Virus record (IMG/VR): IMGVR_UViG_3300031840_000861
Location: 1-25,037 of that record
From: a virus
Length of the DNA: 25,037 bases
Direction: 5' to 3' (one strand)
The position numbers and the translations under genes are program-made. The notes under the pieces are model-generated. The model was given only the letters and a program-made list of their open reading frames with translations. It did no database searches and had not been told where the DNA came from. This document shows, one piece after another, positions 2,335 through 23,921 of this stretch (its first letter is position 1; each line of letters begins with the position of its first letter).

Positions 2335-2347
2335 CGAACGCCGTTCG
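2335..2347. repeat. Iterated palindrome CGAACGCCGTTCG, copy 1 (extragenic)
   Basis: Perfect 6-bp arms flank a single central base. The palindrome begins at the base after the TAG stop of the preceding gene and lies 17 nt before a 12-bp hairpin. Including the upstream CTAG, a 17-bp stretch is identical to copy 5 near 19882-19898. Confidence 0.85.
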
Positions 2348-2364
2348 GCCAAGCTCAAGGAAAG

Positions 2365-2392
2365 CGCCCCGGGTCCTGATGGATCCGGGGCG
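2365..2392 (+). terminator. Strong 12-bp hairpin after the head gene block (attenuator or weak terminator)
   Basis: CGCCCCGGGTCC pairs with GGATCCGGGGCG (11 Watson-Crick pairs and one G-U) around a TGAT tetraloop. The downstream run is only GTCTTG, so termination would be partial. It sits between the highly expressed capsid genes and the low-copy connector genes, which would suit stepping down expression, and its 3' arm lies just before the start of the next gene, which has no clear Shine-Dalgarno of its own. Confidence 0.5.
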
Positions 2393-2403
2393 GTCTTGAC
2401 CCG

Positions 2404-2799
2404 ATGACCACTCATGCCCGCCGCGCCCTGGACGTGGCCTTTCGCCTTTACGGCTTCGATGCGGTCTATACCGCGCCCGAGGCCCAGGCGGCGGCCGGAA
2501 CGGTGCGCCTGCTTCCCGTGCCGCAGGACATGGCGGATGCGACCGCATCCTTCATGACCACGCGCATTGTCACGGGCTCGATCCAGTTCCGCGTGCGGAT
2601 CTACGAACCCGCGCTCGAGGACGCGGTGCTGGCCGAGAAGGGCGAACTTGTGACCCCGGCTATCCTGGGGTCCGGGCTCGAACCCTTCGCCGGCAAGACG
2701 TTCGTGATCGATGGCGAGCCCAAATCGCTCGATCTCTACCGGCTGACCCGCACGATCGCGGTCCACGATGCCGCCCGCTTCGGCCCGCCGCAGGCCTGA
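2404..2799 (+). CDS. Putative head-tail joining protein, lambda FII-like
   Basis: This 131-residue protein begins M-T-T-H-A-R-R-A-L-D-V-A-F and contains a V-I-D-G-E-P-K-S-L-D strand near residue 105, followed by a short helix. Size, beta-rich pattern and place (after capsid, before the tail-completion genes) match the FII-like joining proteins of alphaproteobacterial siphophages, which sit beneath the connector and receive the finished tail. Sequence similarity within this group is always weak, so the assignment leans on gene order. The ATG follows a GGGGCGG stretch that is part of a hairpin, so translation may be affected by that structure. No membrane segment or catalytic motif is seen. Confidence 0.6.
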   Translation: MTTHARRALDVAFRLYGFDAVYTAPEAQAAAGTVRLLPVPQDMADATASFMTTRIVTGSIQFRVRIYEPALEDAVLAEKGELVTPAILGSGLEPFAGKTFVIDGEPKSLDLYRLTRTIAVHDAARFGPPQA

Positions 2800-2804
2800 C
2801 GCTC

Positions 2805-3506
2805 ATGTCAGTCGACATCACGCTGGCCCTGCAGGGCGAGTATGAACGCTTCACCGATGCGGCCCAGACAGCGGTTCTGCAGGCCCTGGCCGCAGCGGCC
2901 TATGACGTGACCTTTCAGGCGCGCGAAGAGTTGAAGAAGGACACGCGCGCGGCCGGTCTCGGCGTTATCGAGCGGACCTGGCGCATGGAGATGTTTCCGG
3001 CGCGCGGCAAGCTCTCGACGGCGCCGACTGGCTGGATCTACTCGCGCGCGCCTCAGATCATCGAATCCTTCGAGCGGGGTGTGACGATCGGCGGCGGTCC
3101 GTCCAGCCCGATTGCGATCCCGATCCCGGACAGCCCGGCCGGAGATCTGAAGAACCCGCGCGGCCCGGCCAATCTGGTCGATGCGGCCGAGGCCAAGTAC
3201 GGCAAGCTGACGGTCATTCCTGGCGGTCCGGGCAAGGCGGCCATGCTGGTCGCGAACAATGTGCGTTTTACCAAGACCGGCCGGCTGTCTGCGGCCAAGC
3301 TGACAAAGACCGGTCGCTATCGCAAAGGCGCGGCCAGCGTACCGCTCTTCTGGCTGGTGCCGAATGCACACCTGAAAAAGCGGCTGAACGTCGCCAAGAT
3401 CCGGCACCGCGCCGAACGCCGTTCGGCGGCGCGCCTGCGTCACCACCTGGACCGCCATCTGGCTGACGTCATCGCCAAGCTATCCGATCAGGGTTTCAAG
3501 CTGTGA
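2805..3506 (+). CDS. DUF6441-like phage protein, probable tail-completion/minor tail component
   Basis: A 233-residue basic protein, with clustered arginine and lysine in the last 60 residues (K-K-R-L-N-V-A-K-I-R-H-R-A-E-R-R). The pattern of an N-terminal helix, a middle W-I-Y-S-R-A-P near residue 72, an I-P-I-P-D loop and a late F-W-L-V-P-N-A-H near 184 matches the DUF6441 proteins found in alphaproteobacterial phages. Its position corresponds to lambda Z / HK97 gp10, which finish the tail so that it can attach to the head. It starts 5 nt after the previous stop, and its own stop overlaps the next start (GTGA). One copy of the iterated palindrome lies in its C-terminal coding region and reads A-E-R-R-S. 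Function is inferred from order; the family match is from memory. Confidence 0.62.
   Translation: MSVDITLALQGEYERFTDAAQTAVLQALAAAAYDVTFQAREELKKDTRAAGLGVIERTWRMEMFPARGKLSTAPTGWIYSRAPQIIESFERGVTIGGGPSSPIAIPIPDSPAGDLKNPRGPANLVDAAEAKYGKLTVIPGGPGKAAMLVANNVRFTKTGRLSAAKLTKTGRYRKGAASVPLFWLVPNAHLKKRLNVAKIRHRAERRSAARLRHHLDRHLADVIAKLSDQGFKL
3413..3425. repeat. Iterated palindrome CGAACGCCGTTCG, copy 2 (intragenic)
   Basis: This is an exact copy of the 13-bp palindrome inside the DUF6441-like gene. Flanking bases extend the symmetry by one pair per side beyond the core (C and G), so the local palindrome is longer here than at the extragenic copies. Confidence 0.85.
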
Positions 3507-3976
3507 CCCGCGCCGAACAGATCCGGCAGGCCTTGTTCGAGGCGATCCGGACCGGTGCCGCGGCCACGCCGGACCTGCCGGCTCCGGTCCGCAATGAGGG
3601 ACTCGAGCAGGGCCTGTCCCGGCTCTCGGCGCAAACCGGTTCGCATGGCTGGCTCAACCTGATCGACCTTCAGCCCGAAAAGCTGGGCGAGGAAATTGGA
3701 GATCAGGGCGAGGGGCTTGAGGAGTACGACCTGCCCGTCCGCGTCGAGTGGGTCGTGCTTCACCCGGACGATGCGACCCGCGAGGCGGCATTCGATGCGG
3801 GCCTTCAGGCCCTGGGCGCCATCCTGCGCGCCGATCTGACGCTGAACGGGACCTGCGACGATCTCACCTTTGACGCGCCCGACAGCGCGGAGACGGTGCT
3901 GTCCGGCGTGCCGCAGTTCAAATCGTGCGAGTTCACCGTCCGGCTGCTCTTTGCAGTGCCGGACATCCTGTCCTGA
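3503..3976 (+). CDS. Putative tail terminator protein, lambda U-like
   Basis: The 157-residue product starts at GTG within a GTGA overlap with the previous gene and reads M-T-R-A-E-Q-I-R-Q-A-L-F-E-A-I. An N-terminal helix, a central strand (Y-D-L-P-V-R-V-E-W-V-V) and a late pair of strands (C-E-F-T-V-R-L-L-F-A-V) give the alpha-beta layout of tail terminators, which cap the growing tail tube and make the head-binding face. Position between the tail-completion protein and the tube protein supports this. Sequence alone gives only a weak match, so it is chiefly an assignment by gene order. No alternative enzyme motif is present. Confidence 0.6.
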   Translation: MTRAEQIRQALFEAIRTGAAATPDLPAPVRNEGLEQGLSRLSAQTGSHGWLNLIDLQPEKLGEEIGDQGEGLEEYDLPVRVEWVVLHPDDATREAAFDAGLQALGAILRADLTLNGTCDDLTFDAPDSAETVLSGVPQFKSCEFTVRLLFAVPDILS

Positions 3977-3991
3977 AAGGAGTTCTGACCG

Positions 3992-4246
3992 ATGGCCAGC
4001 AAACCCAAATCCACGCCCGCCGCCTCGCAAACCGGATCCGCTGCGGCGCCGACACAGGCCCAGCCGGCCAAGCCGGCCGCGCCGGTCTACGCCTTTTTCC
4101 TGCGTGCGCACAGACAGGGTGACGGGTCTCAGATTGCGCGCGGCTGTGTGCGCCGCCTCCCCGGCGACGAGTTCACCCGCCTCAGCGGCGGCGAGACGCC
4201 CACCGTGCGCAAGGCCAGCCAGACCGAAATCGCCCTGGCCGGCTGA
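3992..4246 (+). CDS. Small hypothetical protein with disordered Ala/Pro/Lys N-terminus
   Basis: I do not recognise this 84-residue protein. The first 30 residues are a low-complexity Ala/Pro/Lys/Gln linker (A-Q-P-A-K-P-A-A-P). The rest looks compact and could form a short beta-barrel-like unit (Y-A-F-F-L-R-A-H, then a V-R-R-L-P-G-D-E-F turn). A clear AAAGGAG ribosome binding site lies about 9 nt upstream of the ATG, so it is probably translated. It occupies the gap before the tail tube gene. The V-x-R-L-P-G-D pattern resembles short tail-associated proteins of other phages, but no function is claimed. Confidence 0.6.
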   Translation: MASKPKSTPAASQTGSAAAPTQAQPAKPAAPVYAFFLRAHRQGDGSQIARGCVRRLPGDEFTRLSGGETPTVRKASQTEIALAG

Positions 4247-4309
4247 CCTCCTTTCACCCCGCTCCCCCCGGGGCGACCCGGCGCCTGGCCGGGCGCGCGT
4301 TCGTGCCTG

Positions 4310-4324
4310 CGGCGCTTCGCGCCG
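4310..4324 (+). terminator. Stem-loop before the tail tube gene
   Basis: CGGCGC and GCGCCG pair perfectly around a TTC loop, followed by TTCTCA. A second, weaker stem (CCCGGC with GCCGGG, about 4277-4293) lies just upstream. No long T-run is present, so termination would be partial. The 111-nt gap otherwise holds only the ribosome binding site (CGGAG) of the tube gene. Confidence 0.3.
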
Positions 4325-4357
4325 TTCTCACCTGCCTACTGATCACGGAGATTATTC

Positions 4358-5365
4358 ATGCCGGACGTTGCATCCCAACGAAGCCGCGGCCTTGTCCTGG
4401 CCGCCGGTCTTCAAACCGACTTCGTCACGCCCCTGTCTACAGGGCTGGGGCGCTACACCTACTACGAAGAGAGCCTGAACACGACCGAGGCTCCGGCCGA
4501 GGACAACGAGCTGGGCCTGGAGACCCATGACGATCGCTCTCCGACCGATCCGGGGCCGGGCTCGAAAGGCGGGCAGGGCTCGATCGTCGTGCCCGCCGAC
4601 CTGAACCAGCTCGGCTTCTGGCTGACCTTGCTTCTGGGGACACCGGACACGACCGATAACGAAGATGGCAGCTGGACCCATGTCTTCAAATCGGGTGCCG
4701 ACACGCTGCCGAGTGCGACGCTGCAGCGCGCCCTGGGCAGCGGCCGCTGGAAGATCGCCAAGGGGCTGATGGTCAATTCCATCGCCTTCGGCCTGGCCAA
4801 GTCCGAGGATGGGTATCGCACCTTCCGCCTCGATTGCATGGCCCGTGAGGTCTACACCGCCGGCGCGCCCATCGAGGCCGATCCTGCGGCCATGGCGGCC
4901 CGTGCCAAGCTTCCGGCCAAGCGTGGCCTGACCCGGCTGAACTCGGTGGTCAATGCCCAGCTGGTCTCCGGCGAGTTCACCTTCGCCAACAATCTTCAGC
5001 GTGAGGATTATGCCGATAGCGCCGACGATGCCGGAGATCTGGCGAGTGCCATGGAACCGGGCGATCTCAGCTTCTCCGGCAACCCGACCTATCGGTTCAA
5101 GCGCGGCGCCGCGCTGAACGGGGCGATCGACCTGTTCACCTCGCATACCACGCCGTTCGCTCACGAGATCGAGTATGCGCGCTCGGACACGTCCTCGCTC
5201 CTGATCGCCACGCCGCGTTGTTTTGCGCCGCCGGCCGTGCCGGCCGCCAACGGTCCGGGGCCTGTCGACTTCTCGACCTCGATCACGGCGCGTCAGGTGG
5301 TCGGCGAAACGCCCGCTCCGCTGATGACGGTCACGCTGACCAACGCCGTGGAGAGCTATTCGTGA
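4358..5365 (+). CDS. Major tail tube protein (Phage_tube_2-like)
   Basis: The 335-residue protein has the layout of the long tail tube family: an opening T-P-L-S-T-G-L near residue 25, an acidic E-D-N-E-L-G segment where the family carries a conserved E-x-E loop, the G-S-I-V-V-P-A-D strand, a F-W-L-T-L-L-L-G-T-P helix near 87, G-S-W-T-H-V-F-K-S-G near 105-115 and L-P-S-A-T-L following it. These proteins stack as hexameric rings to make the tube through which DNA is delivered. CGGAG lies 8 nt upstream of the ATG. The stop overlaps the next start (GTGA), as is common for tube and chaperone genes. Confidence 0.85.
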   Translation: MPDVASQRSRGLVLAAGLQTDFVTPLSTGLGRYTYYEESLNTTEAPAEDNELGLETHDDRSPTDPGPGSKGGQGSIVVPADLNQLGFWLTLLLGTPDTTDNEDGSWTHVFKSGADTLPSATLQRALGSGRWKIAKGLMVNSIAFGLAKSEDGYRTFRLDCMAREVYTAGAPIEADPAAMAARAKLPAKRGLTRLNSVVNAQLVSGEFTFANNLQREDYADSADDAGDLASAMEPGDLSFSGNPTYRFKRGAALNGAIDLFTSHTTPFAHEIEYARSDTSSLLIATPRCFAPPAVPAANGPGPVDFSTSITARQVVGETPAPLMTVTLTNAVESYS

Positions 5366-6251: not shown

Positions 6252-8909
6252 ATGAGCCGTGCCGTCAACGTCCTCCGGCTGCGCCCGGGAGATGCCGATC
6301 AGGTCATGTCCGCGCTGAAGAAGCTTGGCGGGGAACATGAGCGCCTGGCTGACCGCATCGAGAAGTCGAACAGGAAAAGTTCGAACTCGACGCGGGCGGT
6401 CGACCGGGCCATGCGGGATCTGCGCCGGAACCTGACCAATACGGCCTCGCGCATTCCCATCCTGGGCGGCGCGGTCGAGGCGCTCGGCATGAAGGCCGTC
6501 GCGGCCGCCGCCGGCATCGCGGCTCTGGGGCTCGGCCTGGCCCGGGCCATGCGCATAGCCCGCGAGGCGGTGCGTGCCTTTGACGAAGTGGCCAAGCGGG
6601 CCGACCGGATGAGCCTGGACACCGACACCTTCCAGTCGCTCCAGCTGGCGGCCGACGAAGAGGGTGTGAAGCTGGAACAGCTCAATCAGGCGCTGAACAT
6701 CTTCACCATCAACTCGGCCCGGGCCGCGACCGGCCGCGGTGAAATGGTCGAGAAACTGCGCGAATCCCATCCCGATCTCCTGCGTGAGATCAACCTGACC
6801 GAAACCAATGCCGAGCGTCTCGAGCTGATCGCGACCGCATTGCGCAATGCGCGCAATGAACGCGAGCGGACCATCCTGGCCAATGCCGCCTTTGGCGAAA
6901 GCGGCCTGGCCGTCGCCCAGATGCTGGAGCGCCAGCAAGGCGGGATCGAGGGGCTCACCGCCCGTGCCCGGGAAATGGGTGTCGTGGTCGATGAAAGCGT
7001 GCTGCGCCGCGCCGAGATGATGGAGAACCGGCTCGGCGTTGCGGCCCGCGTGATCGACGTGAACATGAAACAGGCCTTCATCGATCTCGCGCCGGTCCTG
7101 GTCGCTTCGGCTGAAGGTTTCGCATCCTTTGCCCAGGGTGTGCGCCGCGCGACCGAGGCGATGCACCCGTTCTTTGAAGAGTTGATGAAGGTCCAACGCA
7201 TCACGTTCGAGGATACGGCCGCAGATCTCGAGACCCAGCTTGCGGGCATGGAAACGCTCTGGTCTCAGCTGGACGCCCTCTCACGGCGCGAGTTCGGCGC
7301 GTTCGGTGCGGCCCGCGCCCATGCCGGCATCATGCCGCAAGTCGAGGATGTTCTGGGGGCCGATGCCGTCAAGGCGATCCAGGACCGCGTGCGCGCGGCC
7401 GGCGGGGCGCAACAGGAGATGATTGCGGCCTACCGCGATGCGCTCGTCGAGATCTATACCGAGGGCCGGGACGCCTTGCGGGCGTTGCGCACGGAGACCG
7501 GCCGCGAAGGCGACGATACGCTGACACTGTCTCAGCGCCGCGAGGCGGCCCGCGTTCGGGCCGAGCTGGGCGACACGACCGGTCTGGTCGCGCTCGAGCA
7601 GGAGCGCCTCAACGAGCTGGTCGGGGCCGGTGCGATTACGGCGGACGAGGCGGCGGCGGCGCTGGCGCGCTATCGGACAGGACTGGAAGAGGCGGGCAGC
7701 GCGGCGCGCGATGCGGCTCAGGCCGAACGCGCCGCGGCGCAGATCCGCGCAGATCTCGGCGATGTCAGCGAACTGGTGAGCTTGCGCCAGGCCGAACTGA
7801 ATGCGCTCGTGGCGCGCGGCTCCATTACCCAGGACGAAGCCAGCCAGGTTCTGACGCGATACCGCGCCGAGCTGGACGGCACGGCCGAGGCGCTGGCCCG
7901 GGCCGAAGAGATCACGCGCTCCATCCGCAACCCGGCCGAGATCTACAATCAACGCGTCGCCGAACTCTCCGTCCTGCATCAGCAGGGCCATCTCGACTTT
8001 GCCGTCTATCTGCGCGCCATGCAGGCGGCGCGTGCCGAGTACGAGCAATCCAATCCGCTCCTGGCCGACGCGGCCCGCATCCGGGACGAGATCGCGACCA
8101 AGGAGGAACGCCTGGCGGCCGAGACAGCCAGGGTCCGCGAGATCGTCGAAAACACAAACCTGACCTGGGAAGAGGCCCGCGAGTATCTCGAGCGTTACGG
8201 GGAAGGGCTCGACCGGGCCGAGAAGGCGGGCAGTTCGCTGCGCTTCGAGACACAGCTGTTGGACCGCATCCTCTCCGGTCAGGTCGAAAGCTGGGAGGAT
8301 CTGGGGCGGGTGGCCCTGCAGGTTCTCGCCGATATTGCCCGTCAGGCCGTGATGACCGCAGATTCCACGCAAGGGCTGGGTTCCTTCATTGCCCAGATTG
8401 CCGGGGCCTATTTCGGGGGTGGCAACAGCGGCTCGATCAGCGTGGCCCGCACGGCCGGCCCGGCCATGGCCAATGTTCCGGCGCCGAGCCTCTCCCTGCC
8501 GACCTTCCACGAGGGCTGGCAGGGCAGTCCGGCCAGTGCCGCCCGGCAGGTTCGCCGTCACAGCCGGCTCGGCCCCGATGAGTATCAGAGCGTGCTGCGA
8601 CGTAACGAGCGCGTCTGGACGGCCCGCACCAATGCCGAGGTGCTGGCCACGCTGTCATCGATCGCGGGCGCGCTGTCGCAGGCCCCGGCCCCCGGCCAGG
8701 CCGGGGGTGCCGGCGGCATCGAGGTCCATGTCAATGACTATGGCGGGCGGCGGGACGATGTGGAGGTCAGCGAACGCCGTTCGCAGGACGGCAGCCACAG
8801 GATCGATGTGATGATCGGCAAGAAGGTCAACGCCATGATGGGCGCGGGCGCCTTCGATGGCGGCCTGCAGAAACGCTATGGCATGAAGCCGAAGGTGGGG
8901 CAGCGCTGA
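6252..8909 (+). CDS. Tail length tape measure protein
   Basis: This 885-residue, helix-rich protein follows the chaperones and is the longest gene before the tip proteins, the defining position of the tape measure. Residues about 72-107 are a hydrophobic, Ala/Gly-rich segment (A-A-A-A-G-I-A-A-L-G-L-G-L-A), as often seen near the N-terminus. Residues about 430-570 hold tandem units of about 64 residues (A-x-x-R-A-x-L-G-D-x-x-x-L-V, then A-x-x-A-L-x-R-Y-R) ending in Y-N-Q-R-V-A-E-L. The C-terminal 120 residues contain H-E-G-W-Q-G and a short Gly-rich linker, a region usually processed or buried at the tip. Using the lambda rule of thumb of about 0.15 nm per residue, the tail would be roughly 130 nm. 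The start abuts the TAA of the GT gene. Confidence 0.9.
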   Translation: MSRAVNVLRLRPGDADQVMSALKKLGGEHERLADRIEKSNRKSSNSTRAVDRAMRDLRRNLTNTASRIPILGGAVEALGMKAVAAAAGIAALGLGLARAMRIAREAVRAFDEVAKRADRMSLDTDTFQSLQLAADEEGVKLEQLNQALNIFTINSARAATGRGEMVEKLRESHPDLLREINLTETNAERLELIATALRNARNERERTILANAAFGESGLAVAQMLERQQGGIEGLTARAREMGVVVDESVLRRAEMMENRLGVAARVIDVNMKQAFIDLAPVLVASAEGFASFAQGVRRATEAMHPFFEELMKVQRITFEDTAADLETQLAGMETLWSQLDALSRREFGAFGAARAHAGIMPQVEDVLGADAVKAIQDRVRAAGGAQQEMIAAYRDALVEIYTEGRDALRALRTETGREGDDTLTLSQRREAARVRAELGDTTGLVALEQERLNELVGAGAITADEAAAALARYRTGLEEAGSAARDAAQAERAAAQIRADLGDVSELVSLRQAELNALVARGSITQDEASQVLTRYRAELDGTAEALARAEEITRSIRNPAEIYNQRVAELSVLHQQGHLDFAVYLRAMQAARAEYEQSNPLLADAARIRDEIATKEERLAAETARVREIVENTNLTWEEAREYLERYGEGLDRAEKAGSSLRFETQLLDRILSGQVESWEDLGRVALQVLADIARQAVMTADSTQGLGSFIAQIAGAYFGGGNSGSISVARTAGPAMANVPAPSLSLPTFHEGWQGSPASAARQVRRHSRLGPDEYQSVLRRNERVWTARTNAEVLATLSSIAGALSQAPAPGQAGGAGGIEVHVNDYGGRRDDVEVSERRSQDGSHRIDVMIGKKVNAMMGAGAFDGGLQKRYGMKPKVGQR
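8771..8783. repeat. Iterated palindrome CGAACGCCGTTCG, copy 3 (intragenic)
   Basis: This exact copy lies near the 3' end of the tape measure gene and reads S-E-R-R-S. With the flanking G and C, symmetry extends to GCGAACGCCGTTCGC, 15 bp. Confidence 0.85.
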
Positions 8910-9777: not shown

Positions 9778-10214
9778 TGTCGGTCCTGACCCCCACTCTT
9801 CCGCCGCGCGGCTGGCAGGCACCGTATATCGGCGTGCCCTATCTATGGGGCGGGATCGATCCTTCCGGGTGGGATTGCTGGGGGTTGATCTCCTGGTGTC
9901 TGCCCGCTCATTTCGGCACCGGCCCGATCGAGCTTTATCAGGATGTGCGCACGCCCGAAGTCCAGGCGAGCCGGGCCGCACGTTTCGATGCGCAGGAGGC
10001 CGCCATAAAGGCCGGTCGCGGGGGCTGGCGGCCCAGCGCGGCGCGTCCGGGCGCGGTGGCGCTGTTCAACATTCAGGGGCGGCCGCTGCATGTCGGCCTG
10101 TGTCTGGGCCAGGGCCAGTTCCTGCACGTCCTTGCCCAGACGCCGACCTGTGTCCAGACGCTCGGCTCTCCGGAATGGGCGCGCCGGATCGAGGGTTATT
10201 ATGTCCCCGCTTGA
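9777..10214 (+). CDS. NlpC/P60 family tail-tip peptidase (lambda K-like)
   Basis: The 145-residue protein carries the NlpC/P60 core: the nucleophile in D-C-W-G-L (Cys34), preceded by the usual Y-L-W-G-G-I-D-P-S-G lead, the general base in P-L-H-V-G-L (His105) and a further histidine in F-L-H-V (His117). These enzymes cleave gamma-D-glutamyl or related bonds in peptidoglycan stem peptides; tail-borne copies are thought to open the wall during DNA entry or to process tail proteins. It lacks the N-terminal JAB domain that lambda K carries. It starts in a TGATG overlap and its end overlaps the giant hub gene by 14 nt. Confidence 0.88.
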   Translation: MSVLTPTLPPRGWQAPYIGVPYLWGGIDPSGWDCWGLISWCLPAHFGTGPIELYQDVRTPEVQASRAARFDAQEAAIKAGRGGWRPSAARPGAVALFNIQGRPLHVGLCLGQGQFLHVLAQTPTCVQTLGSPEWARRIEGYYVPA

Positions 10215-13200
10215 TGACGCGACGCGCCCCCTGTCTCGCGCCGAGCTGACGGCCCACGTCTTTGATCGGCCCTTCGCCCAGACCCGGCCGCGGCGAATCA
10301 CGGTGCCGGAGGGCGCCACGATTGACGCCATGGTCGCGGCCGGGCTCGGCGATCCGGTCCTGCGCGCGCATGCTGTCGTGTGGCTGCAGGGTGAGCGTGT
10401 GCCGCGCGCCGCCTGGTCGCGCATCCGGCCCAAGCCCGCCGCTGTCGTGTCGATCGGCATCCGGCCGTCCGGCGGCGATAGCGACGGCGCCAAGCTGATC
10501 CGCACCGTGCTGCAGGTCGCGGTGGTGGCGCTGGCAACCTGGGTGGGTGGCGGCGCCGGCGGCGCGATCGCGTCATCGTTTTGGGCCGCGGCCGCCGCGT
10601 CCACGATCATGGTCGTGGGCAATCTGGCCATCAACGCCCTTGTGCCGCCGCCTCAGCCCAGCCTGGAGACCAATGCGCGCCCGGATGCGACGTATTCGAT
10701 CGAAGGCGCACGAAACGAGCTGGTGCCCTATGGCGTGGTTCCTCTGCCGATGGGGCGCATCCGGGTCTTCCCCCGCATGCAGGGTCAGCCCTGGCAGGAG
10801 ACGGTCGGTGACGATGTCTATCTGCGCCTGCTCTTCTCGCTGGGGCCTATGGAGTATGCAGACCCGGACCCGGATCTGATCAAGATCGGGGAGACGCGCG
10901 CCAGCGACTTCGAGGGCGTCGAGATTGAAACCCGGGTCCGTCCGGACGATCCCCCGATCACGCTCTACACGACCGATCCATCGACCGAAGTGGTCGGCGC
11001 GCACCTCACGACCGGGCTCTGGGTGACGCGGACCGGCCAGCCGGACATGACGGAGGCCGTCATAATCCTCGCCTTCCCGACCGGCCTGGGCGGGAAGGAC
11101 AAGAAGGGCAAGAATGTTTCGGTCACGGTGACGCTCGACGTCCAATATCAGCCGGTTTCCGAGGATCCGGACACCGGCCCCTGGTATGATGCGAGATCCT
11201 CCGCCCCGCAATCCAACCAGGCCGTGGCGGCGCTTGGCGAAACCCGCTTCGGCTTTGGCGGCTTGTTCGGAGACTACGATACACGGGTCCGCGGATTCGG
11301 CGCCCCGACCGGCACAGTCACCTACAGACGCGCCGAGCCGGGCAAGCCGTTCCGCCGCGAAATCCGGGTCGCCTTGCCGCAGGGTCAGTACCGCTTCCGG
11401 GTTCGCCGCACGAATGCGGAAGCCGACGATGACCGGACCGCAGACCGGGTCGACTTCGCGCAGCTGATCAGCTTCGCGCCGACCGATCCGAACCCGGAGC
11501 CGATGCACGCCGAAATGGCGATGCGCATCAAGGCCAGCGATCAGTTGTCGGGCATGGTCGACACGATCAATCTCGTGCTCGAGCGTGTGGCTCCGCGCCT
11601 TGATCCCGAGATCGCCGGCGATGAGGACGCGGATCTGTCCACGGTGACCGCCGAGGACTGGACAGAGGCGGCCATCACGCGCAGCCCGGCCGATCTCGGC
11701 CTGTTTGCCGTGCGCGGGCCGCATGTCGCAAACCCGCGTCCCGATGCGCTGATCGACTGGCCGGCCTGGGCCGCCTTCTCCAGATGGTGTGCCGATCAGG
11801 GCTACACCTTCGACTATTTCCTCGTCGAGGATATGCGCCGAGCCGACTGGTTGCGCCTGATCTGTGCGGCCGGTCGCGGCCGGCCGGTGATCTTGAACAA
11901 TCTTCTGTCTGTCGTGATCGACGCGCCGCGCGTCTCCGGACCGTCCGCCATGATCACGGCGCGCAATGTGCGCGGCTTCCGGATGACGAAAACCTTCCCG
12001 GGCGACGTGCATGCGCTGCGCGTCACATTTCAGAACGAGGAAGAGGGTTACCGGACTGACGAGCGCATCGTCTACATGGACGGCTATTCGAAAGACGGGA
12101 GTGAGGCGGGTACGCAGGAGGCCACGAAGTTCGAGGCGCTCGAGCTGATCGGCGTGACCGATCCGGACCTGATCTATCGCCTGGCCCGGTTTCACGGCGC
12201 GACGGCTTTGCTCCAGACCGAACGCTTCCATTTTTCTCAGGACGTGGAATCGCTGACCTGCACCTACGGTGACCTGGTTGCGATCCAGCACGATGTGATG
12301 GTGCTGGGTCTGGGGGCCGGCCGGGTGGAGTCCCTGATCCTGGAGGACGGGACAGGGCGTATTGCCGGCGTGGTGCTTGACGAAACCGTCGAGATGACCG
12401 CCGGCGTGCAGTACGGTCTGACCTGGCGGCGCGTCGTCGATGACGGGGAGGATCATGCCCATGTCGAGCTTGAGGCGTCGCGGCCGGTCCAGACCGTACC
12501 AGGCGCGGTGCAGACGCTCCTCTTTGTCGACAGCATGGCGGCGGACGACGCGCCCGCGGTCGGAGATCTTCTGGCCTTCGGCGAGCTGGGTCAGGAGACA
12601 GTGCCGGCGCTTGTGCGCAATATCGATCCGGCCCCCGGGCTGGAAGCCGATATCGAATGCGTCCTCGAGGCCGCGGCGCGTTTCCAGGCCGAAGACGGGC
12701 CGGTCCCCAGCTGGGGTTCGGCCATTGTCACGCAGATCCGCCGGCGCCCGCCGACCCCGGAGCTTGTCGCCGTCAATGTCAGCGCGGCCGGGATCTTCGT
12801 GCGCTTCGGCGTGCCGACCGGGTTTGAGGATCGCATTGCCCGGGTCGAGGCGGCCTGGCGGGTCACGCCGGCTGCGGACGGCGAGGCGGCCTGGACCGCG
12901 CTGTCGCCGCTGGGCGCGGAAGATCGCGTGCTCAGCTTCGTCCCGCCCAGCCCGCTGGAAGACTATGACTTCAAGATCGTCCTGATCGACGCCGAGGCGC
13001 GGCGGTCCGAAGCCCCGTTGCTGGTCACGTCGATCTCGGCCGACGATCAGCTCGACCCGCCGCAGGACGTGTTTGCCAATGCCGTCACGATCGAGACAGC
13101 GAACGGCGTTCGGCAGCCGGTTCTGCAGGTCTCGGCCGAAGCCGATGACGACTTGACGCTGACCGATCTGGTTGTCGAGATCCGGCCCAGCTCCAGCGAG

Positions 13201-15396
13201 GATGAGGCCGACTTCAACCCGCTGGCTATCCTGCCCCCGTCACAGCCCACGCGCGACATACGCGATGTGCCGCCCGGTTCGACGGTGGACGTCGCCTTTC
13301 GCTACCGTGCGCTACGCGGCGAGGGCTATATCTACAGCCCGCGCGTGCTGGTCGAGGATGTCGTCATCCCCGATGAGCTGACCGCGATCGACGCCACAAT
13401 CCCCTCCGCCTCGATCGAGGCGGCGCGAGAGGCGATCAACGACGCGCTCGGCCGCGTGGACGAGACGCTTGCGGACTCTGCCGGCGCGCTGGCTCTGACA
13501 TCCGCTATGAGCGGCCAGCACTCGCTGCTCAACTGGTTGCAGGACCCGCTTTTCCAAGCCGGGTCCGATGGCTTCCGCGTGGTCGAGGGTGTCCAGATGC
13601 TCGCGGACGGGCCTCCGCGCGCCATTCAGGCGTCGTGGACACTCTCCGCAACGGGCGCGCAGACCACGCGGGTCATTTGGTGGCCGGGCCGGAAGCCGGT
13701 CCGTGAGGGTGTCTTCGTCCAGGCCTCATGCGACATCGCGGTCCTGGGCGCGGCGTCGAGCGCGCGCGTGGAAGCGGTCTGGTATGATGAGGCGGGCGAG
13801 ACCTTGTCGGCGAGCGAACTCGGCGCCGGATCGTCCGGGCGCATCGGCGGTGTCGCCGAGGCCCCGGAAGAGGCGGCCTTCGTGGAAATCCGCGTCGTCC
13901 CGGTTGCGGGCTCGGCAGACATTGGCGGGCTCGTGTTGTCCCGCCCGCTCGCCGCCTACGCTTTACCCGGGCAGATCGAGCCGAGCCCGTTTCAGCCGCC
14001 GGATAACGAACTCGCTGCCGAGATCGCGGAGCTTCGCCGCACGGTCGGCGCCATGGCGGAGTTCATCCGCAGCCTGCAGGCGGAAACCCGCCAGGGCCGG
14101 GCCGGCTACCGGGAGAACGTGACGGCGCTTGTCACCGAAAGCGAGTCACGCGCCGAGGCCGTGGCGGGCGTGTACGCGGTGCTCGAAGGCGAATACCTGA
14201 CACAGGCCGCGGCGTCGCAAAGCTATCTGGCGCTCGCGAATCTGGAGGAGTCGATTGCGGGGATCGACCTGACCGCAAACGCCGCGTTCGAGGCTCTTGC
14301 GACTACGGTCAACGGCCTGCCCGAGGACGTGCTGAGTGAGGCCTCGGCAGAGGCGACATTCGTTTCGAAAGCCGGTCTGGAGCAGGCTGTCGCGGGGATC
14401 AGCTTCAGCGGTAATGCTGAATGGCAAGACCTGACCGCCGCGTTCGACATTCTTGTGGGCGCGGTCGCGGATGTTGAAGATCAGGCCGCGTACTTTGAAG
14501 TTCTGGTTGAAGGCGCGGGCGGCAATAATTCTCAGGTCCGGCTTTTCGCGGGCAAGGACGGCTCGGCGGTCGACCTGGTCAGCGACCGGATCGCTCTGCG
14601 CAATCCGGTCGACGGGACGGTCACGGATGCGCTCGTTGCGACCGGCGGGAATATCTACATCCCCAACCAGCTCATTATTGACGATGGCGGCCGGCTGCTG
14701 ATCCAGGGGCCGGGCAACGCCGAGATGAATTTCGGCAACTGGTTCGGTGGTCAGTACTGGGGCTTTAACGTTTACGATGGCGAGAAGAATCTTGTCTTTC
14801 TGGATCCGGTATCTGGCACCTATCTCATTGACGGGGTCACGCTCAAGAATGCCACGGTCGCGAGTTCGGGGCTCGCGGTCGGCGCCTCCCTCAAACAGTG
14901 GATTGCCGCCGACGCTCCGAGCAATTGGTACATCACTTCGACCAGCCAGAAGCTCGCGAGCTTCGTCGTCTCTGGGGTCACTGCGGAAGCCTCAATCCAG
15001 ATCGACGCGCAGATCGACGTCTATAACCTTCACGATTCGGATGTGCACATCGGCGCGCTTATCCAGGTTGACGGTGGAGCGGGCGGAACGCGGACCTTCT
15101 ATCGGATCATGGGGCAGACGGTGACCGAAACGCTCGCCGGGGGGATGACCACCCAGCAATTGAGCGCGGGCAGTCACACGATCGACCTCTGGGTCGTCTA
15201 TTACGGCGCGCGCTCCGGCACCCCGGACAACACGGATATTCGTGTCGAGAACTACGAGGTGCGGGCCGCGCTCGTTGAGCGTGCGGCGGTCACGCAGCTC
15301 TCGACGGCAACCCAGCCGAATACGACAGGCGGCGGTGGCGGCGGCGGAGGCCCCGGTGGGGGCTGGAATCCGCCCCCCGGCGCAGCCTTGCCCTAA
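10201..15396 (+). CDS. TipJ-type host-specificity protein: gpI-like N-terminus fused to gpJ-like hub
   Basis: The start is taken at ATG 10201, 14 nt inside the peptidase gene, giving 1731 residues; an earlier in-frame ATG would lie deep in that gene. Residues 1-85 look like a beta-grasp domain (R-R-I-T-V-P-E-G-A-T-I), followed at about 100-150 by two hydrophobic segments (V-A-V-V-A-L-A-T-W-V-G-G, then I-M-V-V-G-N-L-A-I) as in lambda tail protein I. The middle is the J-like baseplate hub, with FN3-like strands around 860-1080. Residues 1269-1300 form a short coiled coil, and 1431-1467 resemble the DUF1983 region. The end is a poly-glycine run followed by proline-rich residues. This protein closes the tail tip and is expected to contact the receptor or hold the fibre. 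One palindrome copy lies inside. Confidence 0.87.
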   Translation: MSPLDDATRPLSRAELTAHVFDRPFAQTRPRRITVPEGATIDAMVAAGLGDPVLRAHAVVWLQGERVPRAAWSRIRPKPAAVVSIGIRPSGGDSDGAKLIRTVLQVAVVALATWVGGGAGGAIASSFWAAAAASTIMVVGNLAINALVPPPQPSLETNARPDATYSIEGARNELVPYGVVPLPMGRIRVFPRMQGQPWQETVGDDVYLRLLFSLGPMEYADPDPDLIKIGETRASDFEGVEIETRVRPDDPPITLYTTDPSTEVVGAHLTTGLWVTRTGQPDMTEAVIILAFPTGLGGKDKKGKNVSVTVTLDVQYQPVSEDPDTGPWYDARSSAPQSNQAVAALGETRFGFGGLFGDYDTRVRGFGAPTGTVTYRRAEPGKPFRREIRVALPQGQYRFRVRRTNAEADDDRTADRVDFAQLISFAPTDPNPEPMHAEMAMRIKASDQLSGMVDTINLVLERVAPRLDPEIAGDEDADLSTVTAEDWTEAAITRSPADLGLFAVRGPHVANPRPDALIDWPAWAAFSRWCADQGYTFDYFLVEDMRRADWLRLICAAGRGRPVILNNLLSVVIDAPRVSGPSAMITARNVRGFRMTKTFPGDVHALRVTFQNEEEGYRTDERIVYMDGYSKDGSEAGTQEATKFEALELIGVTDPDLIYRLARFHGATALLQTERFHFSQDVESLTCTYGDLVAIQHDVMVLGLGAGRVESLILEDGTGRIAGVVLDETVEMTAGVQYGLTWRRVVDDGEDHAHVELEASRPVQTVPGAVQTLLFVDSMAADDAPAVGDLLAFGELGQETVPALVRNIDPAPGLEADIECVLEAAARFQAEDGPVPSWGSAIVTQIRRRPPTPELVAVNVSAAGIFVRFGVPTGFEDRIARVEAAWRVTPAADGEAAWTALSPLGAEDRVLSFVPPSPLEDYDFKIVLIDAEARRSEAPLLVTSISADDQLDPPQDVFANAVTIETANGVRQPVLQVSAEADDDLTLTDLVVEIRPSSSEDEADFNPLAILPPSQPTRDIRDVPPGSTVDVAFRYRALRGEGYIYSPRVLVEDVVIPDELTAIDATIPSASIEAAREAINDALGRVDETLADSAGALALTSAMSGQHSLLNWLQDPLFQAGSDGFRVVEGVQMLADGPPRAIQASWTLSATGAQTTRVIWWPGRKPVREGVFVQASCDIAVLGAASSARVEAVWYDEAGETLSASELGAGSSGRIGGVAEAPEEAAFVEIRVVPVAGSADIGGLVLSRPLAAYALPGQIEPSPFQPPDNELAAEIAELRRTVGAMAEFIRSLQAETRQGRAGYRENVTALVTESESRAEAVAGVYAVLEGEYLTQAAASQSYLALANLEESIAGIDLTANAAFEALATTVNGLPEDVLSEASAEATFVSKAGLEQAVAGISFSGNAEWQDLTAAFDILVGAVADVEDQAAYFEVLVEGAGGNNSQVRLFAGKDGSAVDLVSDRIALRNPVDGTVTDALVATGGNIYIPNQLIIDDGGRLLIQGPGNAEMNFGNWFGGQYWGFNVYDGEKNLVFLDPVSGTYLIDGVTLKNATVASSGLAVGASLKQWIAADAPSNWYITSTSQKLASFVVSGVTAEASIQIDAQIDVYNLHDSDVHIGALIQVDGGAGGTRTFYRIMGQTVTETLAGGMTTQQLSAGSHTIDLWVVYYGARSGTPDNTDIRVENYEVRAALVERAAVTQLSTATQPNTTGGGGGGGGPGGGWNPPPGAALP
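13100..13112. repeat. Iterated palindrome, copy 4 (intragenic, opposite orientation)
   Basis: CGAACGGCGTTCG is the reverse complement form of the other copies. It lies in the TipJ gene and reads A-N-G-V-R, a different codon phase from copies 2 and 3, which read E-R-R-S. Confidence 0.85.
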
Positions 15397-15413
15397 CACA
15401 GGATCACGAGCCC

Positions 15414-18400
15414 ATGTCACAAACATATATCTGGTTTGACCTTGCTGGCGGCTGGACCGATCCCGAGACCGGCGAGACCTTCCGCCCGGGCCAGACGGTG
15501 CGCTTCGACACGAGCGTGACCGAGACGGCAGAACTCGTGCAGCGTGCGATCGATGCCGGCGCCGCGGTGGACCTGCCCCAGCTTCTTGCGACCTTCTTCC
15601 CGATTGCGTGGTCGAACATCACCGGCAAGCCTGCCAGTTTCACGCCGAGCGCGCACACGCACACGGCAGCGGACGTCGTGTCCGGCGAGTTCTCGGACGA
15701 CCGTATCTCGCAGAGCAGCGTGACGCAGCATCAGGTCGCGCTCGCTCTGGCAATCGCACAGATCACGGGACTTCAGGCCGCGCTCGACGCCAAGCTGGCC
15801 ACGTCCCTGAAAGGCGCGGCCAACGGCCTGGCCGAGCTGGATGCGTCCAGTCTTCTCAAGGCTGCGCAGCTCCCGAACGTGCCGGCTTCCAAAGTCACAG
15901 GCACGTTGGACACGGCCCGTATCCCGCAGCTCGACTGGTCGAAGATCATTGAAGCCACTCGGCCAACCACTCTTGCGGGATACGGTATCGCGGACGCCCT
16001 GACTTCGACGGAGATCGGCCAGCAAATCCAAGCGGCCATCGACGCTCTTGTGGGCGGCGCACCGGGCGCACTCGACACGCTCAACGAGCTTGCGGCGGCG
16101 TTGGGCGACGACCCGGACGCCATCGCCACTCTGACCAATGCGGTATCCAGCAAGCTCGACGCCTCAGTATGGCAGGCGGCCTCCGACACTGTAGACGGCT
16201 ACATGTCCAAAGAGGACAAGGCGAAACTCGACGGTATCGAAACCGGGGCGACCGCCGACCAGACCGGGGCGGAGATAAAAGCCGCCTATGAGGGCGAGGC
16301 CGACACGAACGCCTACACTGACGCGGAGAAAAGCAAACTCGCCGGGATCGCAGAAGAAGCGACAGCGAACCAGACAGACACCTATCTCCGGTCTCGGGCC
16401 AACCATACCGGCACGCAGGCGATCAGCACGGTCGCCGGCTTGCAAGGCGCGCTGGACGACAAGGCCGACATTGCCGCCCTCCCGCGTGCGTCCGTGGCGC
16501 AGTACAGCTCGACAGACACCGTGACTGATCTTGCCGGATCGGGTGGGGCTGTCATCGGTTGGGATGAGATCGTCCAGGCCGACAGCGCTATCAGCGTGAG
16601 CGGCGGCAGCCTGACCTTCAACGAGGCCGGGCAGTACAAAGTCTCGGCCCGGATCGAGTACGAGGACACGTCTACAGAGGGCGTGGACGTGGACTCCTCA
16701 ATCGGCGTCTTCTTCAAGCTCAACGGCGTGGCCATGGGCGGCAAAAGCGTCGGCACGGCGATCAGGAATGTGGCCGGGGCGAATGAGGGATCGGCCTATA
16801 TCCAAGGCATCGCCAACGTCGAAGTCGATGACGTCCTGACCATCTGCACGCAGCGCGAGAGCGGGGCCGACGAGCTGACCCTGCGCTCCGGCGAGAGCGC
16901 CCTGATTATCGAGAAGGTGGGCGGTAAGTCTGCCCTGCTGCCCGCGACGACGATTGGCGAAGTGCAGGGTCTTCAGGCCGCGCTCGACAGTAAGGCCGCC
17001 GCGACCCACGACATTATCGACATAGCCCCGTCCAGTAGTGTCATAACCCCGGCGACGGGGGTGCAGGCGTTCGAGGCCAACTCAGCTCTTGAGGCTGGTT
17101 GGCCCGCACCGTACACGGTGGGCCTGAATGTCAAATTCAGCGAAAACCGTCTGTTCCAGCTCACCGCCAGCAATACGGCGATGTGGTTCCGCAACGGCCA
17201 TAACGTCAACGGGTCAGGGGGTACGGGGCCGGGCTGGTATCCGTGGCGACTGATCTGGAACAGCGCCAATTTCGACCCGACGACCAAGGCCGACAAATCC
17301 AACACCTACACGCAAGCCGAGGTCGATGCCGCGATCACGGCTGCCATTGACGCTCTGATTGGGGGAGCCCCGGGCGCACTCGATACACTCAACGAGCTGG
17401 CTGCAGCTCTGGACGATGACGAGGCGTTTGCGGCGACGATTACCGCCTCCTTAGGTAGCAAGATCGACGTCTCAGCAAAAGGCGCGGCAAACGGTGTCGC
17501 GACCCTCGACGGGGACGGCAAGCTCAATCCTGACCAAATCCCCGATGGGATCGGTGGCGCCGGTCTGACCGTGGCGACGATCAAGACGAGCGCCTTTACG
17601 CCTGCTGTCGGGGAGATCACGCCGGTCGATACGTCAGGCGGCGGCGTCGCGCTCACGGCGCTCCCCGAGACGTCGACTTATGGCGCGCGCTTCGCGCTCG
17701 AAGCTCATGATGAAACATGGTCGCCGTCCAACCCGGTTACGTTGCCCGCACTCGCCGGTGCGCCGCTGAACGGCGAGGACGTGGACCTGATCTTCAACGA
17801 GCCCGGTGTGGTGTTCGCCCGCTGGACCGGGGAGACTTACGGGTGGGAGATTGTATTCGTCCCGGCCGCAGTGTCGTCAGACTATCGCGCCGCGACCGTG
17901 GAAACCCCATCCATCACGAGCCCCGCCGACGATGCGACCGATGTGGGCGAGACGATCATCGTCACGGCCTCGGCCTTCGCGATGACCTACCAGAGCGACA
18001 CCCACGCTTCCACCGACTGGCAGCGCTCGACCGCCTCGGACTTCTCGACCATCGACGCGGAGAGCCTGGAGGATGCGAGCAATCTGACGAGCTGGACGAC
18101 GCCCGCGCACGGGGCCACGTCGACGGGATACTTCTATCGGGTCCGCTATCGGTCGGCGGGTGGCGTGGTGTCGGAGTGGTCGCCGGTTATCAGCGTGACG
18201 ACTGCCAGTACATTCATAATAGTTGAGGCGACGGGCGGAACTGTTACCGATGACGGCGACTATCGGGTACATACGTTCACTACTTCCGACACTTTTGAGG
18301 TCCAATCTTTTTCGGCCGGAAACGCCGAGTTTGATCTGTTGGTCGTCGGTGGCGGCGGCGCTGGTGGTGTCGGCGGCGGCGGCGCAGGAGGCGTGCGCCA

Positions 18401-19004
18401 TTTTGAAGACCTGTCCGTGCCTGCGGTGGGTTCTCACAGCATAACTGTAGGGGCAGGGGGACTGGCCAGCGGAAGCTATGGTTCCCCGGGCTCAAATGGC
18501 GGGGCGTCGTCGGCACTAGGTTACTCCGCGAGCGGCGGAGGGCGTGGTGGACACGGTGGGGCCTCCTCGGCGGGGCAATCCGGCGGCTCCGGCGGCGGCG
18601 GCGCTGCGTCGAACATTGCGACGACTGCAGGTGGCGCTGGTAACTCGGGGGGCTACTCGCCGGTTGAGGGTTACGGAGGCGGTTCCGGTGCGACTGAATA
18701 TGCTGGCGGTGGCGGCGGTGGTGCCGGTCAGGCTGGCTCTACCGGAAGCGGTTCCGTCGGCGGTGACGGAGGTGACGGCATCTCCGTTTCGATTACAGGG
18801 ACAGCGACCTATTACGGCGGCGGCGGGTCTGGTGCCTCGGACGGAGGCACACCAATACCAGGCGGTCTTGGTGGTGGCGGCCAAGGCGGAAGCACCGGAC
18901 TCTCGGCTGATGCCAACACTGGCGGAGGCGGTGGTGGTGCTAATTCGACCGGGACAAATGGCGGCTCCGGCGTCGTCATAATCCGTTATCGCCGCGTTCC
19001 GTAA
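15414..19004 (+). CDS. Mosaic tail fibre / receptor-binding protein with glycine-rich tip
   Basis: The 1196-residue protein is a string of known fibre modules. Residues 66-86 hold W-S-N-I-T-G-K-P and H-T-H-T-A-A-D, a typical collar. The segment A-I-D-A-L-V-G-G-A-P-G-A-L-D-T-L-N-E-L occurs near 207-230 and again near 643-665. Residues 360-502 resemble a C1q/TNF-like jelly roll (F-N-E-A-G-Q-Y-K-V-S-A-R). Residues 531-626 resemble a pyocin-knob binding domain (W-Y-P-W-R-L-I-W-N-S). Residues 826-933 resemble an FN3 domain. From about 973 it is almost pure Gly/Ser with aromatic interruptions, ending G-G-S-G-V-V-I-I-R-Y, the signature of polyglycine-type tips that choose the receptor. It follows the hub gene by 17 nt. 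Domain names are from pattern recognition; the fibre role is firm. Confidence 0.87.
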   Translation: MSQTYIWFDLAGGWTDPETGETFRPGQTVRFDTSVTETAELVQRAIDAGAAVDLPQLLATFFPIAWSNITGKPASFTPSAHTHTAADVVSGEFSDDRISQSSVTQHQVALALAIAQITGLQAALDAKLATSLKGAANGLAELDASSLLKAAQLPNVPASKVTGTLDTARIPQLDWSKIIEATRPTTLAGYGIADALTSTEIGQQIQAAIDALVGGAPGALDTLNELAAALGDDPDAIATLTNAVSSKLDASVWQAASDTVDGYMSKEDKAKLDGIETGATADQTGAEIKAAYEGEADTNAYTDAEKSKLAGIAEEATANQTDTYLRSRANHTGTQAISTVAGLQGALDDKADIAALPRASVAQYSSTDTVTDLAGSGGAVIGWDEIVQADSAISVSGGSLTFNEAGQYKVSARIEYEDTSTEGVDVDSSIGVFFKLNGVAMGGKSVGTAIRNVAGANEGSAYIQGIANVEVDDVLTICTQRESGADELTLRSGESALIIEKVGGKSALLPATTIGEVQGLQAALDSKAAATHDIIDIAPSSSVITPATGVQAFEANSALEAGWPAPYTVGLNVKFSENRLFQLTASNTAMWFRNGHNVNGSGGTGPGWYPWRLIWNSANFDPTTKADKSNTYTQAEVDAAITAAIDALIGGAPGALDTLNELAAALDDDEAFAATITASLGSKIDVSAKGAANGVATLDGDGKLNPDQIPDGIGGAGLTVATIKTSAFTPAVGEITPVDTSGGGVALTALPETSTYGARFALEAHDETWSPSNPVTLPALAGAPLNGEDVDLIFNEPGVVFARWTGETYGWEIVFVPAAVSSDYRAATVETPSITSPADDATDVGETIIVTASAFAMTYQSDTHASTDWQRSTASDFSTIDAESLEDASNLTSWTTPAHGATSTGYFYRVRYRSAGGVVSEWSPVISVTTASTFIIVEATGGTVTDDGDYRVHTFTTSDTFEVQSFSAGNAEFDLLVVGGGGAGGVGGGGAGGVRHFEDLSVPAVGSHSITVGAGGLASGSYGSPGSNGGASSALGYSASGGGRGGHGGASSAGQSGGSGGGGAASNIATTAGGAGNSGGYSPVEGYGGGSGATEYAGGGGGGAGQAGSTGSGSVGGDGGDGISVSITGTATYYGGGGSGASDGGTPIPGGLGGGGQGGSTGLSADANTGGGGGGANSTGTNGGSGVVIIRYRRVP
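15771..15788 (+). repeat. 18-bp direct repeat in tail fibre gene, copy A
   Basis: CTTCAGGCCGCGCTCGAC encodes L-Q-A-A-L-D. An identical copy lies exactly 1200 bp downstream in the same frame, part of the duplicated fibre modules. Confidence 0.85.
16971..16988 (+). repeat. 18-bp direct repeat in tail fibre gene, copy B
   Basis: Identical to copy A at 15771. Between them, 16441 holds a diverged third version reading L-Q-G-A-L-D-D-K. Together they mark the joints between repeated shaft modules. Confidence 0.85.
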
Positions 19005-19026
19005 GCCTGAAAATCGAGGTAAAACG

Positions 19027-19512
19027 ATGACCTATGCAATTCTCGACGATGGCCGCGTTGCTAATATGGTCGAGGCCGACGAGGATTTCGCATCCGCTCA
19101 AGGATGGCTCCCGGTTAGCGGCTTCGTTGACTATGGCGACCGCTGGGATGGGTCGAAGTTCATCCCGTTCCGGGACGAAGCGCTCTCCGAGATCGCGGCG
19201 ATCCGCTGGAGCAAGACGCAGTTTTTCGCTTATGATGACGTTATAGCCTACGCCGAACCGGCCATGGGTCCGGTGATGGGTAAAATACGCATTCTCGAAG
19301 AGCTGGATGCGACCGGCCCGGTCAAGTTCAAGCTCAACGCCACGACCTGGCGGGACATGACGCTGTCCGATCTGAAAGACTACGGGTTGGCGATCGATGC
19401 GTTTATGCAGCCATTCTACGACTACGAGGCCGTACTTGCCGGGCAGATCGAAGCGGCCGCCAGCTTCGAGGTTGTCAACGCTATCGACCTCATGAGTGGA
19501 TGGCCGGCGTGA
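19027..19512 (+). CDS. Putative tail fibre assembly or fibre-associated protein
   Basis: This 161-residue protein starts M-T-Y-A-I-L-D-D-G-R-V-A-N-M-V-E-A-D, followed by a W-L-P-V-S-G and a D-R-W-D-G-S-K-F segment. That opening is typical of short proteins found directly after tail fibre genes, many of which are fibre chaperones (tail fibre assembly or DUF4376-like). The C-terminal half is helical (L-S-D-L-K-D-Y, D-Y-E-A-V-L-A-G-Q-I-E-A-A). A clear GAGGT ribosome binding site lies 8 nt upstream. Adjacent location and matched N-terminus support a partner of the fibre; I cannot assign a specific family with certainty. Confidence 0.65.
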   Translation: MTYAILDDGRVANMVEADEDFASAQGWLPVSGFVDYGDRWDGSKFIPFRDEALSEIAAIRWSKTQFFAYDDVIAYAEPAMGPVMGKIRILEELDATGPVKFKLNATTWRDMTLSDLKDYGLAIDAFMQPFYDYEAVLAGQIEAAASFEVVNAIDLMSGWPA

Positions 19513-19874
19513 CACCGGTTGTCCGCGTCGAGCGGCGAGGGCCGCTGGCCTGCTTCGTCTTGCTGGAGCCCTTGACGGTGCGCGAGCTGACGATTGACCC
19601 ACCGTTCGCCAGCGACGGGGAGAGCGTGCCGTTCTGGGCGCAATGGCTCTTCCCGCGCGCCTCCGCCGCGCTGCCCGCCTCGATCGCGCACGACTACCGG
19701 CTATCGCTCACACGCGATCCGGCGGCCCGGTTCCGCGCGCATCGCGAGTTCCGCGAAGATCTGATCGCGACCGGGGTCCGCACCTGGCGCGCGCAGATCA
19801 TGTGGCGTGCGGCCATGCTGGCTGACGACACAATCCCGGTCGCGCGGCGGCTGCGCTTCCTGTTCACCGAGTAA
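19500..19874 (+). CDS. DUF1353 family phage protein
   Basis: The 124-residue protein shows the DUF1353 core: L-T-I-D-P-P-F-A-S-D-G-E-S-V-P near residues 29-43, then I-A-H-D-Y-R-L near 62, followed by helices with R-F-R-A-H-R-E-F. DUF1353 proteins are common in the late region of phages and prophages; their role is unknown, although the conserved H-D pair suggests a metal or catalytic site. It overlaps the previous gene by 13 nt from ATG 19500; a GTG at 19509 giving a GTGA overlap, the same style used elsewhere in this cluster, is an equally plausible start. It is the last gene before a strong terminator. Confidence 0.75.
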   Translation: MAGVTPVVRVERRGPLACFVLLEPLTVRELTIDPPFASDGESVPFWAQWLFPRASAALPASIAHDYRLSLTRDPAARFRAHREFREDLIATGVRTWRAQIMWRAAMLADDTIPVARRLRFLFTE

Positions 19875-19885
19875 CCGCCCACTAG

Positions 19886-19898
19886 CGAACGCCGTTCG
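19886..19898. repeat. Iterated palindrome CGAACGCCGTTCG, copy 5 (extragenic)
   Basis: It lies 11 nt after the TAA of the DUF1353 gene and ends 4 nt before the intrinsic terminator stem. The 17-bp block CTAGCGAACGCCGTTCG at 19882-19898 is identical to 2331-2347. Confidence 0.88.
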
Positions 19899-23568: not shown

Positions 23569-23775
23569 GGACAGACCTCATTCAGCATGATCAGGATGAT
23601 GCGTCCGTCAGACTAGCCCAGGCGACGGGTCTGCGTCACCCGGGGGCGGGGCGGATCGGGGCGCTTCCCGCTTCGGCCGTCCTGCCAGCCGGCCCCGGCG
23701 CCCGGCTGTCCGGCCCGCCGCAACGGGCGGAAAACGGGTGGAGGCCCGGACTAGCCTGTCCCACAAGGGACCTGA
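23569..23775. other. Intergenic region at the prophage right end
   Basis: No credible gene is seen. Several GC-rich hairpins are present, including GTCCC/GGGAC around ACAA just before the tRNA fragment. GCCCGGA at 23744-23750 matches the usual 5' acceptor arm of tRNA-Phe, but it is 25 nt from the anticodon stem instead of the normal 19, and no D-arm lies between. Confidence 0.6.
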
Positions 23776-23825: not shown

Positions 23826-23908
23826 TTTTTCCTCCCATCGTTTCATTAACCTCTCACGCGTTTTTCTCGCAGCGCAGGCGCGAGATTGGCTTCCTCTGCC
23901 ACGCGTTC

Positions 23909-23917: not shown

Positions 23918-23921
23918 ATTA

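Follow-up and report, generated by a model that had tools for sequence, protein, structure and literature searches.

A dispersed 13-bp palindrome in alphaproteobacterial prophages as a probable loading site for a ParA-less, KorB-like ParB clamp

The DNA analysed here (the window) is a 25-kb viral record from IMG/VR (IMGVR_UViG_3300031840_000861; 25,037 nucleotides). It carries five copies of a 13-bp palindrome, CGAACGSCGTTCG, which we link below to a ParB-like protein encoded by related phages. Matches to PHROG and Pfam give a gene order of head decoration protein, major head protein, tail fibre J, holin, and D12 methyltransferase, all on the + strand. The right end is 98.8 per cent identical to Marinicauda pacifica and begins inside tRNA-Phe, so the record represents one arm of a prophage integrated there. 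The prophage is incomplete in the window, and its host is a strain of Marinicauda. The early arm, where an integrase and a minus-strand parB linked to it would be expected, lies outside the window and is not in the contig. The features are listed below.

368 to 23353, + strand: late arm (structural genes, lysis, D12 methyltransferase), from PHROG and Pfam matches
2335 to 2347, + strand: site 1, CGAACGCCGTTCG, intergenic, directly 3' of the stop of the open reading frame 1933-2334
3413 to 3425, + strand: site 2, within the phrog_6367 gene 2805-3506, codon phase 2
8771 to 8783, + strand: site 3, in the tape-measure gene 6252-8909, close to its 3' end, codon phase 2
13100 to 13112, - strand: site 4 (reverse form; + strand CGAACGGCGTTCG), within the tail fibre J gene 10090-15396, codon phase 1
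19886 to 19898, + strand: site 5, 12 bp past the end of the open reading frame 19500-19874, ahead of a terminator-like hairpin
23775 to 25037, + strand: right attachment boundary, the 3' part of the host tRNA-Phe followed by host sensor-kinase DNA

A preliminary description of this DNA had recorded the five copies as far above chance, with three in unrelated genes and two codon phases and two outside genes, and each of these points was borne out. All five are exact. An order-2 Markov model predicts 0.006 copies in the window, and dinucleotide shuffles gave a mean of 0.11 matches with at most one mismatch, against ten observed (five sites on two strands); no shuffle reached ten. The motif is a 6-1-6 inverted repeat with C or G at its centre and the half-site CGAACG (CGAACG-S-CGTTCG). 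Every GAAC-N3-GTTC in the window is the exact 13-mer, so the constraint spans all thirteen positions. A shared protein segment as the cause of the repeats is ruled out by the unrelated genes, the two codon phases, and the intergenic copies.

Viral contigs with the motif were drawn from among the matches listed by a viral-contig scan with a 14-base form. Searching twenty of these records in full gave two to twenty-one copies of the 13-mer per record, and a reversed-pattern control gave none in all twenty. Twenty-two other phage or prophage elements carry four to eighteen exact copies each, about 150–1400 times the Markov expectation; exact matching overlooks degenerate sites. Copies are distributed from end to end with a typical spacing of 4–5 kb. 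This is more even than uniform placement (Fisher combined P about 1e-13, a value inflated by related elements, which are not independent of each other), and eight single elements have P < 0.02 on their own. In comparisons across phages, all thirteen bases were kept in 39 of 60 cases while the flanks were 67–96 per cent identical, and one site inside parB is common to four elements (G162, G117, G241, G303) with flank identity of about 70 per cent. Selection at the DNA level, as first proposed, is supported. The insertion of a mobile motif, offered as another cause, does not agree with sites that are evenly spaced, lie in unrelated genes without common flanks, and often stay intact as their flanks diverge. 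Tighter groups than the usual 4–5 kb also occur: two pairs 61 bp apart (G258:C6:128187 and C27:9754) and three 13-mers within 175 bp (G139:C59:20035-20208). At another locus (G162:C1:3525368-3614229), two different motif-bearing prophages adjoin with one ParB each, which raises the question of cross-regulation.

The palindrome had also been suggested to be a genome-wide uptake-like or self-recognition motif of the host lineage. A related idea is a host genome signature (uptake-like, nucleoid, or segregation motif) that the phage took up; the palindromic, repeated character of the motif is all that speaks for it. The 3.1-Mb M. pacifica genome has a single copy, and the 13-mer is therefore not a host-lineage motif. 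Among 299 genomes of the order to which M. pacifica belongs (hosts of the motif elements were placed to order level), most have zero to two copies, the same as the reversed-pattern control (maximum four). The exception is seven genomes with tight clusters of 6–21 copies across about 23–90 kb; outside such prophage clusters, hosts are at the control level. Across 385 genomes drawn from the whole class, the highest count was five (the two surveys make up 684 genomes in overlapping draws, most of them with zero to two copies). These counts rule out a host-wide motif, and a host signature has next to no chance of being the explanation. The preliminary description had called for a count in the host genome, and that count is at expectation, which refutes the host-motif idea and only that idea. 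Of the roles it proposed, binding by a phage regulator or a segregation-type protein stands and the uptake-like or self-recognition role falls away.

The most widely shared protein family in the motif elements is ParB-like, 450–920 amino acids long; terminase and portal families come next, with seventeen elements each. An iterated profile found a full ParB homologue in twenty of the twenty-two elements and a partial one at a contig edge in G315. It found none in G304, a 34-kb fragment. Sixteen of these ParBs share only 19–53 per cent identity with the reference (first) sequence, yet the residues N118, G161, R163, R164, N203, and R206 of the cytidine triphosphate (CTP)-binding boxes (NPR, GERR, ENxQR) are invariant among them. 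Many have a winged-helix or Cro-like helix-turn-helix (HTH) before the CTPase boxes and a long C-terminal region after them. PF02195 (ParB_N) is above its cut-off in most homologues tested, below it in G241, and undetected in G303 and G305, yet the family profile finds both of the latter. The NCBIfam parB_part domain is above cut-off in five of six ParBs tested. A ParB-type HTH after the CTPase domain is indicated by PF17762 (above cut-off in several), an invariant V274, and a fold match. AlphaFold2 and Foldseek ranked the ParB core with Noc (the top match), nucleotide-bound (CTP) ParB, and KorB, and sequence profiles run against PDB give the same picture.

Searching a phage collection with ParB baits returned ParB_N-level similarity only, at most 51 per cent over short stretches. 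Pairwise ParB alignments led to six new contigs. The motif is present in all four contigs with the closest ParBs (48–93 per cent identical) and missing from the two with distant ParBs (L208, L209).

Two ParBs have a distinctive C-terminus. The G305 protein (L158:15222-17765) ends in a ROS/MUCR domain (E 4e-30), and the C-terminal stretch of the G127 protein (L248/L249) is clearly similar to this Ros/MucR-like zinc-finger domain. We know of no earlier description of a phage ParB fused to a Ros/MucR silencer domain. MucR is an H-NS-like silencer in alphaproteobacteria (PMC10746212, PMC8857273).

The surroundings of parB point to the lysogeny module. parB is oriented opposite to terminase or portal genes in 36 of 36 pairs and in the same direction as the integrase (serine or tyrosine type) in 15 of 15, as a rule no more than a few kb away. 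A copy of the site lies inside, or at most 1.2 kb upstream of, 20 of the 21 full parB genes, which suggests autoregulation. XRE proteins are also encoded near parB.

Site and protein were further compared at loci that lack the exact motif. From the 299 genomes, ordered by their match to the ParB profile, we chose ten loci that encode large phage-type ParBs and have no exact-motif cluster. A search for repeated inverted repeats, in which the motif was not used, found 6-1-6 palindromes in at least seven of these ten regions. CGAACC-N-GGTTCG was recovered de novo in G127, G117:C5, G142, and G092 (P from 4e-7 to 4e-16), CGAGCG-N-CGCTCG in G177, CGARCG forms in G137, CGCACC-N-GGTGCG in G196, and CGAAC-N3-GTTCG, eight times, in G018; P values for weak palindromes vary with the background model. 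Matched control regions of host DNA, ten of 40 kb from these genomes or related ones, contain zero to two CGAAC-N3-GTTCG each. Some host regions hold other repeated palindromes, CTCCCC among them, so the de novo test leans on the shared design and not on P alone. Phage genes are present in the regions from G027, G127, G137, G177, G018, and G196. The G142 and G117:C5 regions have Prim-Pol and D5-type helicase genes and may therefore be phages or satellites. At the sequence level, site type and ParB co-vary, and no other observation argues as strongly for ParB as the reader of the palindrome. Separately, the host control regions of G142, G162, and G092 (L270, L271, L278, L279, L282, L283) contain repeated palindromes of the type CTCCCC-N6-GGGGAG, probably a dispersed repeat or terminator family.

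From the distribution, conservation, and even spacing of the sites, their link to parB and co-variation with it, the CTPase boxes, and the orientation relative to the integrase, we conclude that CGAACGSCGTTCG is probably a dispersed loading site for a ParA-less, KorB-like CTP clamp of the lysogeny module, which probably silences or organises the prophage. That the ParB-like protein binds the palindrome is well supported at the sequence level and very probable. By analogy with ParB, Noc, and KorB, a ParB dimer would bind each palindrome through its HTH and, once closed as a CTP-dependent clamp, slide away onto the adjacent DNA; physical binding and sliding are inferred from these relatives. With a loading site every 4–5 kb, clamps could cover a whole prophage of 35–60 kb. 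The most likely purpose would be lysogeny, through long-range repression or compaction of the prophage, and the site at or in the parB gene would allow the protein to control its own expression. Silencing by the clamps is a tentative proposal, drawn from the MucR-like silencer domain at the C-terminus of two ParBs and from the repression at a distance by the KorB clamp. A broader conjecture, of some plausibility and still doubtful, is that a large group of alphaproteobacterial temperate phages encodes a chromatin-like system, a ParA-less ParB clamp, sometimes fused to a MucR silencer domain, that loads at the evenly spaced palindromes and covers and silences the entire prophage. Diversification of site and ParB into several specificities, within this chromatin-like picture, is a similarly provisional proposal.

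Other explanations accept or replace ParB as the reader. The same protein could serve segregation, the sites being scattered centromeres through which dividing cells retain a phage genome that is excised or plasmid-like. The ParB family itself, the parB_part matches, and the dispersed parS-like sites are consistent with this. ParA (PF13614), however, is absent from 15 of 16 virus records, the window fragment included, in a search whose control was positive in 14 of 14 genomes; the single match, in G312, is about 13 kb from parB. ParABS partition is rejected with ParA missing from nearly all records. The elements also carry integrases and reside in chromosomes, and an element-wide array exceeds what a centromere needs, which makes a segregation role quite improbable. 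Somewhat less improbable, and still unlikely, is a lytic function in which clamps mark or coat DNA for packaging or modification, or shield it from nucleases and restriction. A role in steering DNA modification while the genome is packaged has been suggested for phage ParB domains encoded near terminase genes (PMC6536676). The window has a D12 methyltransferase, and coverage of the whole genome suits a protective coat. Against this, no element tested has parB in the packaging operon: the gene always accompanies the integrase and is oriented against the late genes. The D12 methyltransferase was itself rejected as reader of the site: the 13-bp palindrome is unlike known targets, and similarity recovered the gene in only 6 of 23 elements.

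A conventional Cro/CI (XRE) repressor might instead bind the sites as stoperators, on the model of mycobacteriophage L5. In the cluster A mycobacteriophages (L5, Bxb1), up to about thirty dispersed 13-bp repressor sites occur in a temperate genome, with subgroup variants that track the repressor much as site and ParB co-vary here (PMC6550527), and the XRE genes near parB would supply candidates. Many dispersed copies across a temperate phage genome are indeed found here, but a cognate repressor conserved among phages with the same site is not: XRE recognition helices are wholly different among elements with an identical 13-mer, whereas an R-x-V-Q-like pattern is kept in the recognition helix of most ParBs. 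The palindrome is symmetric and lacks the orientation bias of the transcription-oriented L5 sites, and it is tied to a ParB-CTPase protein. The non-matching helices count against an XRE stoperator system, and we regard this explanation as very improbable.

Several observations weigh against the ParB clamp proposal. We infer a parB in the window's own phage from its relatives, on which the link between site and protein rests for this phage. No palindrome was found de novo in G180, which has a strong ParB match (E 2e-59), and only a weak one in G027. Among the recognition-helix residues, none clearly explains the switch from CGAACG to CGAACC. The genome G259 has seven scattered 13-mers (contigs C74, C105, C128, C132, C162) with no cluster or phage-type ParB. 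Because motif-bearing elements went into the ParB profile, the overlap between genomes with the motif and those with the top-ranked ParBs is partly circular, a problem that the de novo search for palindromes does not share. Finally, many sites lie in late genes and not at promoters, positions that fit coating better than simple repression and prove neither.

The nearest known system is KorB/OB of the IncP plasmid RK2. It shares a ParB-family clamp, sites distributed over the element, and an operator of 6-S-6 design, TTTAGC(c/g)GCTAAA (PMC2680271). Only this design is common to both, as the half-site CGAACG differs and the KorB operator TTTAGCSGCTAAA is not matched. KorB-CTP slides and silences promoters over more than 1 kb (PMC11790492), the long-range effect proposed here, and both the fold and the profile comparisons match KorB structures. 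Unlike RK2, the elements here are integrated prophages in which ParA/IncC was not found and sites occur throughout the late genes; their ParBs exceed KorB in size and have an additional HTH at the N-terminus as well as a long C-terminal region. Noc/NBS of Bacillus is likewise a ParA-less ParB paralogue with many dispersed palindromic sites, but Noc acts on the host chromosome and septum, and the NCBIfam Noc model scores our ParBs far below its cut-off. The SPbeta repeated element (SPBRE) is a prophage-wide motif read by a non-classical master repressor, MrpR, which has a recombinase fold and reported sites in promoter regions (PMC10516654). VirB of Shigella is a ParB-like CTP clamp repurposed for gene control (PMC10770331); it is an activator that counters H-NS on a plasmid and does not use a repeated array.

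In the available part of a 2025 survey of the ParB-CTPase fold, orphan ParBs are described as widespread on mobile elements with functions open, and orphan prophage ParBs are mentioned there without such sites being assigned (PMC12704722). In the open literature (subscription papers and preprints lay outside the search) we found no earlier description of a ParA-less, prophage-wide ParB array. One orphan ParB group thus gains a probable DNA target, a readable site code, and several natural specificities, and the gene context pointing to lysogeny makes its function directly testable. If silencing is true, prophages would encode their own CTP-driven counterpart of chromatin, and stoperators and SPBRE/MrpR would be joined by a third type of prophage-wide control. 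The 6-1-6 palindromes could be used for spotting such prophages, and the class of their ParB, in raw sequence.

No close relative of the window DNA turned up in the phage collection, and a bait search of viral contigs with the major capsid protein found no relative. The first 20 kb of its phage DNA had no match in the M. pacifica genome, an empty answer without a positive control. At the left end (1-147), a GyrB-like peptide, judged by eye, is joined in frame to an unrelated stretch; Pfam had no match to the joined 100 amino acids, and the junction has the look of a misassembly at the record's edge.

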